Origin: Streptomyces antibioticus
GTDB taxonomy: Bacteria > Actinomycetota > Actinomycetes > Streptomycetales > Streptomycetaceae
Length of the DNA stretch: 64,000 bases
Direction of reading: 5' to 3'
Assembly: GCF_001514065.1 (NCBI RefSeq)
Contig: NZ_KQ948422.1
Coordinates: 1-64,000, forward strand
In this document: one piece after another, positions 13,500 through 28,603 of the stretch
Numbering within the stretch: position 1 is the stretch's first letter
Layout: every line of letters begins with the position of its first letter
Notes under the pieces: model-generated
Told to the model about the DNA's origin: nothing
The model's database searches: none
The model's input: only the letters and a program-made list of their open reading frames with translations
Position numbers and translations under genes: made by a program

Positions 13500-14249
13500 T
13501 CAACGCACGAGGATGAGTCCGCAGCTGTACGCGCGTGCATGGCCGATGCCCTGAGCAAGGGCGGTGACGAAGGTTTTGGGGTCGGTGATCGTGAGAGTGC
13601 CTTTGATTTCGGCACGGGCAATGCGCAGGCCTTTGTGTGATGTCGTGCTGGAGATACGGGGCAGCATGCGCAGGGCAAGTCGTTCGGTGTCTGTGTCGGC
13701 TCCGATACGTGTGACGCCGTCGGGTGCGGTGGAGGATTGTCCCAGTGGTTGCAGGCGGCGCGCGAACCAGTCTCTGACGTGTTCGGGGCGAGTGTGGGGG
13801 ACGCGGGCGCCACGCTGCTTCGGTGATGAGCCAGCTGCGGGTCGAACGCTGCGGACCGGGTTGACGACCGTGCGGAAGTCGACCCGGTCTCCTGGGCGGA
13901 AGGTGCGCTCGACGGTGAGGGTTTGTGGGGCCTCGGCGAGGGCTGCTCGGGGCACGTTGGTCCAGTCGGCAGGGACGGAGGACTGCACGACGAGGTTGAG
14001 CCGTGCTTGGCGCAGGTCGAGGGTCCAGGTGGACAGGACACCCATCTGGGAGCGGGCATCCTGACTGCCGTCGTCCACCCAGCCGATGAATCCGCTCATG
14101 ACATTGCGGTGCATGTCCTGGGCGTCAATGAGCGCTTTTGCGGCATAGGGATGTCGAGCGTCCAGGGTCAACAGGGTGTGCGTGGTGACGAACCTGGCGG
14201 CGCCACCGGGTCCTGACGGTGCTTGCGACGTGGCGGCTGTCGTGTTCAC
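13500..14249 (-). CDS. cas6e: Cas6e (CasE), crRNA-processing endoribonuclease
   Basis: 249 residues. Cas6e cuts the repeat hairpin of pre-crRNA and stays on its 3' stem-loop in Cascade. The N-terminal [10 protein letters not shown] segment holds the histidine position that is catalytic in characterised Cas6e proteins. The C-terminus [15 protein letters not shown] is the family glycine-rich loop. GTG 14249 overlaps the cas5e stop (GTGA). It is the last cas gene and is followed within about 20 bp by array 2, where cas1 would normally lie. Confidence 0.93.
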
Positions 14250-15121
14250 AAGATGATGTCCCATCCGGGGGCGTCCGGGGCGATGGTGATGCGGTGGCGG
14301 GTCTCCCAACGAAGGCTGTGACCGCCTCCGTCCGCGCTGAAGCGCAAGGGCTGGTCATTGAGGGGGGCAACCGTTGGCAAGGGGCGCGGGCTTTCGATCC
14401 AGGCCCATGGCCGTACGCCGGTCGCGGGGGGCGGTGGGCCGGGTTCGTCGTGGGGTGCGCCAGGGAGCAGGGCATGGGTTTCGAATGTGTGCTTGAGGGT
14501 GCCGCGATGGACGCCCAGGGCGAGGTCGCCGGAAGGGGGGCAGGCCTTGCGGCCGAGCCAGAGCAGGCGTTGGGGGTGTTCCAGGGCGTGTGCGATGCAG
14601 TGCAGGAGTTCGGGGTCGGGGTGCTGCAGGCCGGCGAGGAAGGCGGCGTCGGCCAGATACCAGCGTTCGGTGATCAGTGCGTGGCGGCGCGGCTGCCCGG
14701 AGATGAGGGCGCCTGATGCCGGGTCCGTGGTGACGTACTTGGGTGAGCCGTACCAGGAATCCAGCTGTGTGCTGCCGAACGGTGCGGCGTCCGCGTGGTG
14801 CGGCGTGTCGGCCGTGAGGGCTTTTTCAGCTCGCTGGTGGTCGGTGATGAGGTCTCGGGGGCGCAAGGGGTAGGTTCCGCCGCCGACGGTGTGGTAGTCC
14901 CGCAGGGGGGTGCCGGGCCGGTCGGCTCGGACGCCGAAGAGGACCTCTGCGAGTCCCCCCAGTGGCTGCTCTCGCTCAAGGCCGAGGGCTGCGGCGCACA
15001 GCCCGAGCACGCCGGACTTCGTGGGCCGGGGGTGGGTGTCGCGGCGGCTGAACCGGCCATTCAGGCCCCAGGACTGCAGAGGGCCGGCCAGGCGGACGAG
15101 GAGGACGTGGGCGTCGCTCAC
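14246..15121 (-). CDS. cas5e: Cas5e (CasD), Cascade subunit binding the crRNA 5' handle
   Basis: 291 residues opening with [20 protein letters not shown] and [18 protein letters not shown], the hallmark N-terminus of Cas5e. The family holds the 8-nt crRNA 5' handle at the Cascade tail. That matters here because arrays 1/2 and array 3 encode different handles. The start overlaps the cas7e stop (ATGA) and the stop overlaps cas6e (GTGA). No extra nuclease domain such as HNH is attached. Confidence 0.95.
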
Positions 15122-16473
15122 GGGGTGAGGTCCTTGGCTCGTTCCACCACGACGAGCGACTGGGGTAGTCGCAGCTCGTCCAGGAGGGTGTCGATCTCGG
15201 GGTCGTAAGTCAGGAGGCGGGCAGTGCGCAGGTCCTCGCGGCGGCGGCTGACGAAGGTGTGGTGGCGCAGCAGGCGGCGAACGGCGGCGGGCCCGGCCGG
15301 TCCTTCCCCACCAGCTGTGAGGGGTCCCTCGTCGATGGGGCGTTGGAAGGCGGAGGCGTAGTTGTAGGGGCGGTCTCCTTCGAAGGCGAGGACGAGGGCG
15401 GGCAGCGAGCCGGTGGATGCGGTGGAGTTCTTCTTGGCCTCGGGGAAGGCTTCGACGAAGGCGTTGACGAATTCCTTCTCGGCCTCGTCCGCGGCACTTT
15501 CGGCCTCGTCCGCCTCCATGCCGGCCGCGCGGAGATTGGTGCGCAGTTGGGCGCGGTCGAGAACAGCGTGCCGGTAGAAGGTGCCGGAGATGAGGGATTG
15601 GTAGCCGGTCATGCCGGCGCCGGCTTCGTCGGCGGCGTCGAGGAAGCTCAGGGCGTTGCGTTTGCGGTCCAGTTTGGCGTCGTCGGCGGCGGCGTAGAAG
15701 TCCTCGATTTGTTCGGCTTCGTGCACGGTGAAGGCGTGTGCGGTCTGCACGGCACCGTCGACGTTCGGGGAGTCGGGGATCTCGGCCAGAAAGCGTCCGT
15801 ACAGGGCGATGTCCACGGCGTCGCGGGGGGCCAGGGCCAGGAGCACGGCGTCGCGGGTGGCCTTGGGCAGCGGCGGCAGGTCTCGCGCGGCGGGGGATGT
15901 TTCTGGTGTCGCGTCCGCCTCGGGCGGTGGCGGGTCAGCCTTCTTCGTTCCGCGCCGGGTCTTCTTCGCTGCCTCGGTGGCGGCCTGGGCCGTGAGATAT
16001 TTTTCGCGCCATGCCTCGACTTCATCGGCCTGCTCAGCGATGTGGTGGGCAATGCGTGCTGCGGCATCGGAGGGGGCGAAGATGAGCACCCGGGTCAGGT
16101 TGGCCACCGTCTTCTTTTTCGGGTCGCCGAACTTAAGACCACTTGCCTCCATCACCGCTCGGGCCGTGAGGAGGGCCCGCTCCTTGTCCCAGCCGTGCGC
16201 GGTCTCCAGCTCGCGGCCCGTCAGCAGCGCCCATTCCCGGGTGCGCACGCCCATGCTCCGTCCCGCGAGCGGGCCGCGGCCGGCGTTGGCACGGTTGCGG
16301 GCGTAGACCCGCTCGGCGCGCCGGCGGGCCTGACTGGTGATCATGTGCCGTTCCACGCCGCCGAAGACGAGGGTCTTGGGCTGGGCGTTCTCGTCGCGTA
16401 CCGGAAGGACGGCTGCAAGGGTCTCGACGAGGTGGAGGGAGAGGAACTGGCTGGGGGGTGCTGCCTGGCTCAC
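15118..16473 (-). CDS. cas7e: Cas7e (CasC), Cascade backbone subunit
   Basis: 451 residues. Cas7e proteins polymerise along the spacer part of crRNA. Diagnostic segments are [18 protein letters not shown] at the start, [20 protein letters not shown], then [20 protein letters not shown], and [11 protein letters not shown] near the C-terminus. It is longer than the usual 340-390 residues because of a charged, proline-rich insertion near residues 168-205 ([18 protein letters not shown]). GTG 16473 overlaps the cse2 stop as GTGA. Confidence 0.94.
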
Positions 16474-27000: not shown

Positions 27001-28531
27001 AGGGTGGTTCGACGGTCATGCAGTCGCCGGTCACTGCCGTGCTCCCCGCCGACGCGGGGGTGGTTCGACGGGTGCGGCCGCGGCCGCCGTGGTGAACCTG
27101 TGCTCCCCGCCGCCGCGGGGGTGGTTCGACCGAGTACGCCGACCTCCTCGAAGACGAAGAGTCCTCCCCGCCGACGCGGGGGTGGTTCGCGGCTTGGCCT
27201 GGCGGCCCGGCGCGGGCTGTGGTCCTCCCCGCCGACGCGGGGGTGGTTCGTGACCCCGGTTGTCAGTGGTGTGCCGTACCGTGTCCTCCCCACCGACGCG
27301 GGGCTGGTTCGGTATCGAGGTTGGCGATCCACACCGCGTTGCTGTGTTCCCCGCCGAAGCGGGGGTGGATCGCAGATGATGGACGCCATGTTCACGTCGA
27401 CGCCGTACTCCCCGCCGACGCGGGGGTGGTTGTCGTCGGTGCGCGCCACCGGATACTCGGTGTCGGCGCTCCCCGCCGACGCGGGGGTGATTCGATCGAG
27501 TACATCTCGACGGACGTCACGCTGTGGCGCTCCCCGCCGACGCGGGGGTGGTTCGACGGCCGGGCAGCTCATTCGCACGGGCCTGGTGTGCTCCCCGCCA
27601 ACGCGGGGGTGGTTCGGCGGCCATGACTTCCTCGTCGGTCTTTCGCCCGTGCGCCCCGCCGACGCGGGGGTGGTTCGACCGGCGCCGCGTTCGCCGCGAT
27701 CGTGAACTTGTGCTCCCCGCCGACGCGGGGGTGTTCGCTTAACGTGCTTCCTCAGGTGGGCAAGCGTTTGTGCTCCCCGCCGACGCGGGGGTGGTTCGTA
27801 CAGGTAGCCGAGAAACGGTACGGCGGGGACGTGCTCCCCGCAGACGCGGGGGCGGTTCGCCGAACCCGTGCTTCACGGGCGTGATGTTCCGGTGCTCCCC
27901 GCCGACGCGCGGGTAGTTCGGCCCGGAACAGCATCATCGTGGCGGCCGTCGAGTGCTACCCGCCGACGCGGGGGTGGTTCGAACTACTACGTCTACGGCT
28001 ACATGGTGATCGGGTGCTCCCCGCCGACGCGGGGGTGGTTCGGCACCACGGGCCGGCAACGTAGCCGCGCCAGAGTGCTCCCCGCGGATGCGGGGGTGGT
28101 TCGTGACATGACCTTCTACGACTGGCTCGCATCCTGTGCTCCCCGCCGATGCGGGGGTGGTTCGCCCATGCTGGGCACGGTCGATGACGCGAACCGGTCC
28201 TCCCCGCCGAGGCGGGGGGGTTCGACTCCGCGGACGGTCATACGAAGTCCAGCCATGTCCTCCCCGCCGACGCGGGGGTGGTTCGGACACGCAGACGGTT
28301 ATGGGCCATGAGCGAGGGTCCTCCCGCCGACGCGGGGGTGGTTCGGCCCGCCTCGGGGGGACTGATATCCGTACTCCGTGCTCCTCGCCGACGCGGGGGT
28401 GGTTCGGTCGCCGAAAGCCCCGTCCCCGAAGAGGTCGAGGTCCTCCCCGCCGGACGCGGGGGTGATTCGGCAACCATTGGGCCTGCTAGCGGGCGGTGAG
28501 GATCCTACCCGCCGACGCGGGGGTGGTTCGC
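24028..28531 (+). CRISPR. CRISPR array 3, type I-E, about 75 repeats, variant 5' handle
   Basis: Repeats begin GTGCTCCCCGCCGACG and end GGGGGTGGTTCG on the plus strand, at 60-61 bp spacing. The stem-loop is the same as in arrays 1 and 2 but the handle is GTGGTTCG instead of GTGAACCG. At least three repeats (near 24610, 25823 and 25882) carry the array 1/2-type GTGAACCG end. Block-wise variants occur: GTCCTCCCC mainly 24391-25060, GTGGTCCCC among 25094-25980. Decay includes a spacer of about 12 nt near 24485, a truncated repeat at 24556 and a poorly preserved stretch at 26187-26335. The array begins just after the STAND gene and ends at a perfect terminator hairpin. Confidence 0.97.
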
Positions 28532-28577
28532 TTTGTGTCTCATTGCCGTCGGCCAGTTACGGTCCCGGCATGTGAAA

Positions 28578-28603
28578 GGCCGGACGGGTGCAACCGTCCG
28601 GCC
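28578..28603 (+). terminator. Terminator of array 3
   Basis: GGCCGGACGG pairs perfectly with CCGTCCGGCC around GTGCAA. It lies about 47 bp past the last repeat, correctly placed to end a rightward STAND-array 3 transcript. Confidence 0.8.

Follow-up and report, generated by a model that had tools for sequence, protein, structure and literature searches.

A Cas3-less type I-E Cascade beside a STAND ATPase and a small membrane-type protein in Streptomyces antibioticus

What does a type I-E Cascade act through if its genome offers no Cas3? The question is raised by a locus at the beginning of contig NZ_KQ948422.1 of Streptomyces antibioticus (assembly GCF_001514065.1), of which the first 64,000 nucleotides were analysed, here called the window. 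Five Cascade genes stand there divergently to a gene for a 1296-residue STAND ATPase, and the gap between them holds a small open reading frame (ORF) for a membrane-type protein, smA. A first-pass annotation made from the letters alone had proposed that target-bound Cascade could trigger the STAND protein instead of DNA degradation, an interpretation that is partly supported by our results. In our best explanation, to which we give a probability of about one half, the Cas3-less Cascade uses its guide RNA to set off a STAND module that acts through smA and leads to suicide or dormancy of the cell.

Cascade, the missing genes and the arrays

The Cascade genes are all located on the minus strand. 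They are cas6e, the CRISPR RNA (crRNA) endonuclease (13500-14309; PF08798, 1.2e-40; PADLOC Cas6e), cas5e (14246-15121; PF09704, 1.1e-35), cas7e (15118-16587; PF09344, 9.1e-58), cas11e/cse2 (ORF 16470-17219; PF09485, 4.6e-14) and cas8e/cse1 (17047-18648; PF09481, 1.9e-58). All five are in frame as first annotated, exceed the Pfam cut-off and match PADLOC I-E models, and together they identify a type I-E Cascade. The Pfam match of Cse2 spans residues 95-228, therefore the true start is probably further in. The mechanical ORF of Cse1 is over-long. It runs to 18996 with homology from residue 139 of 649 on, and the start was placed at 18648 by the length of homologues. An N-terminal extension as a new domain was rejected as a start error on the alignment of these homologues. 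No HNH or PD-(D/E)xK domain is found in any Cascade subunit (Pfam, E 0.001).

The source genome (10,145,887 bases, 10.15 Mb, 99.98% complete) was searched as a whole. It carries one copy of Cas8e. No match was obtained for Cas1 (PF01867), type I-E Cas2 (PF09707) or the Cas3 HD domain (PF18019), and the cas3_core profile gives nothing over its cut-off. Its best match (1.3e-7) is to be read against a background in which 295 of 295 genomes of the genus match at E 0.001 and 96 exceed the cut-off. The locus was thus correctly described as lacking the three genes, and the description holds genome-wide: a set elsewhere in the genome, named beforehand as the finding that would speak against it, was not detected. 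With cas3, cas1 and cas2 missing from these searches the system falls outside canonical type I-E.

Three arrays are found by repeat scans, all with hairpin repeats at 61-nt spacing. The first (2817-7464, 76-78 repeats) is the largest, has its crRNA sense on the minus strand and lies outside the region that the first-pass annotation had described. The second (12534-13470, minus strand, 16 repeats) is located downstream of cas6e and the third (24028-28413, plus strand, 68-75 repeats) downstream of the STAND gene. In coordinate order 76, 16 and 68 repeats are counted, or 78, 16 and 75 with a looser scan, in total 160-169; the repeat at 24028 is degenerate and was read by eye. A putative leader (23707-24027, plus strand) precedes the third array and contains two degenerate repeat-like hairpins at 23780 and 23838, after the STAND gene and ahead of the first repeat. 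Of the earlier inventory Cascade, the STAND protein and an array on each arm stand, while the largest array and two small ORFs of the gap had been overlooked.

The array 24028-28413 was compared with 50,697 phage records. At E up to 0.03 it matches 12 records, which are exclusively from Streptomyces phages and correspond to five spacers: one against ZL12 (33 of 33 bases), one integrase spacer against SF3/VWB, and one each against Success, Gilgamesh and Chymera. In the array 2817-7464 the spacer at 4845-4877 matches ZL12 as well (seven records in all, two of ZL12 kept). On its 5' side the protospacer is preceded by AAG for five of these six spacers and by AAC for Chymera. The protospacer adjacent motif (PAM) of the I-E system of S. 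avermitilis is given as 5'-AAN-3' in a 2025 review (PMC12231136). With hairpin repeats and, from six spacers, phage matches beside AAG/AAN, the array is a memory of phages. Several other matches were dropped. Geodirt and MoontowerMania were removed as the alignment to Geodirt, the one that was read, extends into the repeat; B22 is a Propionibacterium phage with GAA in place of AAG; Samy matches a repeat and no spacer; MT838110 has 83% identity. A comparison with plasmids gave 149 records; the 98 among them with 60-80% identity are probably cross-matches of repeats.

The STAND ATPase, smA and their relatives

The STAND gene (19816-23706, plus strand) encodes a protein that matches PADLOC STAND_TPR (PDLC01173) with 1283 bits over model positions 1-1110 of 1114. 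This near-full-length match bears out the earlier call of a STAND protein divergent to Cascade; the start is likely near 19909, where the match begins. PADLOC describes the family as HTH-ATPase-TPR, with an HTH of the Xre type, and as 'associated with cas1-less I-E system in Streptomyces'. Pfam finds no domain or family at all in the protein at E 0.001. In 51 aligned STAND loci the lysine of Walker A is kept in 49 and the aspartate of Walker B in all; a tryptophan of the N-terminal segment is kept in 50.

Two small ORFs for single-helix membrane-type proteins, both on the minus strand, were recognised in the gap between cas8e and the STAND gene. smA (19509-19685, 58 residues) consists of one hydrophobic helix and a conserved basic tail (RRxDAxxTLxILxR). 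All 51 STAND-Cascade loci have a homologue, encoded opposite to STAND in every case, and none of the other 23 loci of the tree described below has one. The profile used was made from 12 loci, 11 of them placed on the tree and among the 51. In 9 of the 51 the STAND gene is located downstream of cas6e, and smA still adjoins it there. smB (19111-19212, 33 residues) has homologues in 16 of the 51 loci, six of which are in its model. With a full-length STAND_TPR adjoining Cascade and small membrane proteins nearby, the locus corresponds to the cas1-less I-E variant of PADLOC and Shmakov.

Relatives were collected by scanning genome contigs with a 14-row Cas8e alignment, which led to 61 named loci in Streptomyces, Actinomadura, Nocardiopsis, Allonocardiopsis, Actinacidiphila and Kitasatospora; the STAND-Cascade module is present in five actinobacterial genera. 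The loci of the genus survey were added and seven duplicates taken out, which left 74 loci in which both Cas7e and Cas5e match. These were assigned to classes by profile, and a tree of Cas8e, Cas7e, Cas5e and Cas6e was built using FastTree. The profiles for smA, smB, STAND, the Cas proteins and the sister variant described below were built partly from loci that were later scanned. Profiles from stop-to-stop segments moreover include some out-of-gene codons, worst for Cas5e, which adds noise to the tree.

The 51 STAND loci form one clade (support 0.983) that also holds a remnant with STAND pieces (L048). A second clade (1.0) comprises four loci with a different module (L050-L052, L102). Twelve loci have a divergent cas3, with cas1 not detected in the fetched DNA; eleven of them are placed outside both clades and one (L101) groups beside the second with weak support (0.58). 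The rest are four canonical systems with cas3 and cas1, plus L058 and L113. Eleven loci with divergent cas3, whose fetched DNA likewise gave no cas1 (L105-L109, L111, L115, L116, L118-L120), may be the transposase-linked Streptomycetaceae variants treated in the 2025 review (PMC12231136).

STAND holds the divergent position in 42 of its 51 loci, the position that cas3 occupies in relatives, as the first-pass annotation had assumed. Judged from these arrangements, the ancestor probably had cas3 where STAND now stands. One locus of the STAND clade (L080, 1987-15252) combines STAND and smA with an intact-looking cas3, in which the HD, Walker A and DEAH motifs are all present. The Cas3 proteins of L080 and L101 are sisters (0.998). 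L080 is a possible evolutionary intermediate. On one reading STAND arrived before cas3 had gone, and repeated losses of cas3 followed; alternatively, cas3 may have been regained by recombination. Taken together the replacement of cas3 by STAND is supported by the divergent cas3 of relatives and by L080. Cas8e keeps the same residue in 86 of 113 columns in 48 loci of the STAND clade, these columns being conserved in 11 relatives outside this clade and the second one (10 loci excluded beforehand). Residue switches as a mark of lost Cas3 docking are not claimed, given 0 switched and five weakened columns.

Is the STAND family equally common apart from Cascade? The tree set was gathered mostly via Cas8e, so this was assessed from the survey of 295 genomes instead. 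STAND_TPR matches of at least 580 bits, a threshold of our choice, are found in 15 genomes, and in 12 of these the match adjoins this Cascade. It stands without Cascade in three (G166, G066, G178), while G173 has a second, solitary copy. Below 580 bits, the STAND pieces of G056 adjoin what remains of cas6e and cas5e, and for those of G038 no Cascade is found in 20 kilobases. The family is thus not equally common without Cascade, the outcome that was named in advance as unfavourable, and its Cascade-linked members form a clade of their own. Twelve further regions, comprising the Cas8e loci seen without nearby cas3 and controls, were fetched and none falls in this clade; the remaining places of the survey were judged by eye from coordinates. 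smA matches in 31 of the 295 genomes at E 0.001 and reaches at least 55 bits in 15, which include all 12 genomes with the module; the others are G034, G051 and G293. Neither smA nor smB is found at solitary or fragmentary STAND genes (L039, L045-L047, L049), at L044, which is the detached 3' piece of the STAND gene of G012, or at the remnant L048.

The Cascade-linked STAND proteins are monophyletic (0.997). Solitary STAND proteins were considered as evidence against linkage and discarded as such, since they fall outside this clade. The distances in the STAND and Cascade trees agree with a Mantel r of 0.962, and none of 999 permutations is as high. The ratio of nonsynonymous to synonymous substitution rates (dN/dS) was determined for eight pairs: 0.09-0.50 for Cas8e, Cas7e and Cas6e, 0.35-0.47 for STAND and 0.05-0.64 for smA, where the value is rough as the protein is short. 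Cas5e (0.14-0.45) was left out because of out-of-gene codons. With dN/dS below 1 in 8 of 8 pairs, Cas8e, Cas7e, Cas6e, STAND and smA are under purifying selection.

Some side observations concern these loci. G012, one of the 12 module genomes, has its STAND gene divided over two chromosomal places ~1.7 Mb apart (L043 and L044), and cas7e matches only partly there. In G171 (L036, 8512-10175) cas8e is in two frames, with the other Cascade genes and STAND each in a single frame. Near-identical solitary STAND_TPR relatives occur in three genomes (L045, L046, L047), and in L046 and L047 a different small membrane-type ORF with two hydrophobic stretches lies upstream of the gene. L131 (8500-9162) and L132 (8826-9122) each carry an smA homologue, but nothing in the DNA fetched for them matches STAND; they are possible remnants. 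The widest clusters of conserved neighbours looked like antisense shadows of known genes (by eye, one representative each) and were rejected; smaller ones of 3-11 loci may be real neighbours. One protein family near Cascade is common to both clades (L038, L050, L097, L103) and possibly represents plasmid partition genes by its look.

A possible RNA-guided alarm and its alternatives

The second clade has a Cascade of the same group, likewise without cas3. In L050-L052 a gene upstream of cas8e and in the same direction encodes ~1460-1500 residues with N-terminal GHG and DSC motifs, a STAND-type ATPase and WD40 repeats. H97 of GHG and C147 of DSC are invariant in 9 of 9 relatives, and AAA_16 is found in all nine (Pfam). 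Among the families listed, which for two of the three proteins were the best 25 of 27-29, peptidase C14 appears for one protein at 0.0017, below the cut-off; in the scan of nine members it is not among the best 25 of 40. The protein is called caspase-like here mainly for its two motifs, the C14 match being weak. PADLOC assigns no family to these proteins; one member has a 17-bit STAND_TPR match and a weak match to PDC-M16A is seen. The product of the preceding gene is of alpha/beta-hydrolase type and contains GHSLGS; its Pfam matches, too, stay below the cut-off. In L102 the pair recurs with lower scores, and cas7e is in two pieces. The variant is present in 3 of 295 genomes of the genus.

Both kinds of module have counterparts elsewhere. 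The pair of hydrolase and caspase-like-STAND-WD40 protein stands without Cascade match in 6 of 6 loci fetched (L137-L142, the large gene in pieces in L141) and is a candidate stand-alone defence system. In two of six smA-like loci fetched (L133, 3020-9082; L134, 5130-8537) the smA-like protein lies on the strand opposite to an unrelated NB-ARC-TPR protein, which is likewise of STAND type, again with no Cascade match. Because both combinations occur without Cascade, each module resembles an independent defence, and the same Cascade seems to have been joined to both.

How could the parts at our locus act together? Cas6e would process crRNAs out of the arrays, and Cascade, which would have changed from DNA degradation to the role of an RNA-guided alarm, would recognise AAG-type PAMs and bind the phage DNA there. 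Once on its target, the complex would not recruit Cas3 but contact and activate the STAND ATPase, probably via conformational change and oligomerisation. The activated ATPase may work via smA, and smB if present, to damage or shut down the membrane, with abortive infection or dormancy as the outcome. smA is the preferred effector candidate because Pfam finds no domain in the STAND protein and PADLOC describes only HTH, ATPase and TPR. If true, CRISPR becomes the specific receptor of a bacterial cell-death switch. The locus offers material for a test: every part of the module is in frame, the genome lacks cas3, natural spacers come with their phages and PAM-like flanks, and there is a candidate effector.

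More tentatively, and somewhat against the odds in our estimate, actinobacteria may have built an RNA-guided counterpart of the inflammasome with Cas3-less Cascade as programmable sensor and pre-existing stand-alone STAND death modules, perhaps twice: once from HTH-STAND-TPR and a small membrane effector, once from an Apaf-1-like caspase-STAND-WD40 protein and a lipase-like hydrolase. The phage memory would then trigger cell suicide in place of DNA cutting.

Several observations weigh against a trigger role of Cascade. An array is found in the fetched DNA of only 17 of 51 STAND loci, window included; this is a lower bound as several loci are incomplete there, and many STAND loci may lack crRNAs or use distant ones. 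Spacer matches to phages are known for the window arrays only: the array of L067 has none, and the part of an array in L089 gives weak ones (six records at 60-90% identity). The repeats of the window are degenerate: its three arrays average 1.54, 2.06 and 2.43 mismatches per 28 bases, compared to 0.05-0.67 for six arrays that accompany I-E systems with cas1. Elsewhere in the STAND and sister clades the arrays range from 0.53 (L084) to 4.33, and those of loci with cas3 and no detected cas1 from 0.07 to 5.14. Repeat decay fits the absence of cas1, yet no clean rule emerges. Covariation in the repeat stem is at chance (2 both-sided changes, 0.75 expected, P 0.17), hence compensatory changes are not claimed as a sign of selection. 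Shared host descent may explain part of the tree agreement. smA could also be an anchor or a regulator. Finally, 4 of the 12 genomes with the module carry a cas3-bearing I-E system elsewhere.

Cascade alone might block phage transcription or replication without cutting, with STAND-smA as a separate defence that is merely co-located. The smA-like and hydrolase/caspase-like pairs without Cascade favour this, and both modules may therefore work alone. Against it, the Cascade-linked STANDs form one clade whose tree agrees with that of Cascade even though STAND is placed differently in 9 of 51 loci. We consider mere co-location rather unlikely.

Alternatively, Cascade and the HTH-bearing STAND protein might control host or plasmid genes with no part in defence. 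The Xre-type HTH and the conserved N-terminal tryptophan would suit such a role, but the identifiable spacers match phages beside PAM-like bases and the conserved partner smA resembles a membrane protein. RNA-guided regulation is unlikely on this evidence. A decaying relic, with adaptation and interference lost and fossil arrays, agrees with the absence of cas1 and cas2, the degenerate repeats and the broken copies (Cas8e of G171, the remnant in G056, the split STAND of G012, pieces in L065 and L075). However, dN/dS is below 1 for the parts tested, the ATPase motifs are kept, the module occurs in five genera and one spacer still matches ZL12 in 33 of 33 bases, so that decay seems distinctly unlikely. 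Use of a Cas3 in trans from another I-E system, or of a host nuclease, is suggested by the four genomes named above, by pieces at least of a canonical system alongside the module in L112 and by the own cas3 of L080, but is very unlikely as 8 of the 12 module genomes, the source genome included, have no cas3_core match over the cut-off.

Comparison with known systems

Canonical type I-E shares the Cascade subunits, the hairpin repeats at 61-nt spacing and the AAG/AAN flanks with our locus, which differs by the lack of Cas3, Cas1 and Cas2 and by degenerate repeats. In Avs and NLR-like STAND defence the STAND ATPase is the immune switch. For our locus, in contrast, we propose that an RNA-guided complex does the sensing and that a separate small membrane protein is the effector. 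Craspase is a CRISPR complex that controls a protein effector, a protease of the caspase family. The likeness consists in a CRISPR complex with a protein effector, of the caspase family as proposed for the sister variant; the complex and its partners differ, Craspase being formed by Cas7-11 with TPR-CHAT (PMC10028731). In I-E2 and I-E3, HNH is fused to Cas5 and PD-(D/E)xK to Cas11, respectively, and I-E2 typically lacks Cas3 (PMC12669027). These systems likewise have an altered effector, but Pfam finds no nuclease domain in the Cascade subunits of the window.

The closest known system is the minimal I-E variant without cas1 and cas3 and with a STAND NTPase, described by Shmakov et al. 2018 as reported in three reviews (PMC12231136, PMC6452270, PMC8730458); the mention of such a survey in the first-pass annotation was accurate. 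The same reviews already contain the hypothesis of programmed cell death or dormancy, for which experimental evidence is not provided according to the 2025 one (PMC12231136). That review also reports a chromosome free of CRISPR-Cas for S. coelicolor M145. Our locus agrees with this variant in the Cascade gene set, the full-length STAND family, the host genus, the absence of cas1, cas2 and cas3 and the nearby small membrane proteins. It differs by three arrays, phage-matching spacers and PAM-like flanks, whereas the passage of the 2022 review (PMC8730458) states that the module has no array. This statement fails for our locus and for the 17 of 51 loci that include it. The universal divergent smA and the combination found in L080 do not appear in the passages on the STAND variant, and no report of the caspase-like sister variant was found in the literature searched, in each case leaving aside Shmakov 2018 itself. 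The pairing of Cascade and STAND is hence already known, and PADLOC models STAND_TPR. Our data add to it that this locus holds a phage memory with PAM-like flanks, that a membrane-type protein constantly accompanies the STAND gene, that the STAND and Cascade trees agree, that one locus has cas3 as well as STAND, and that a second kind of STAND partner exists.

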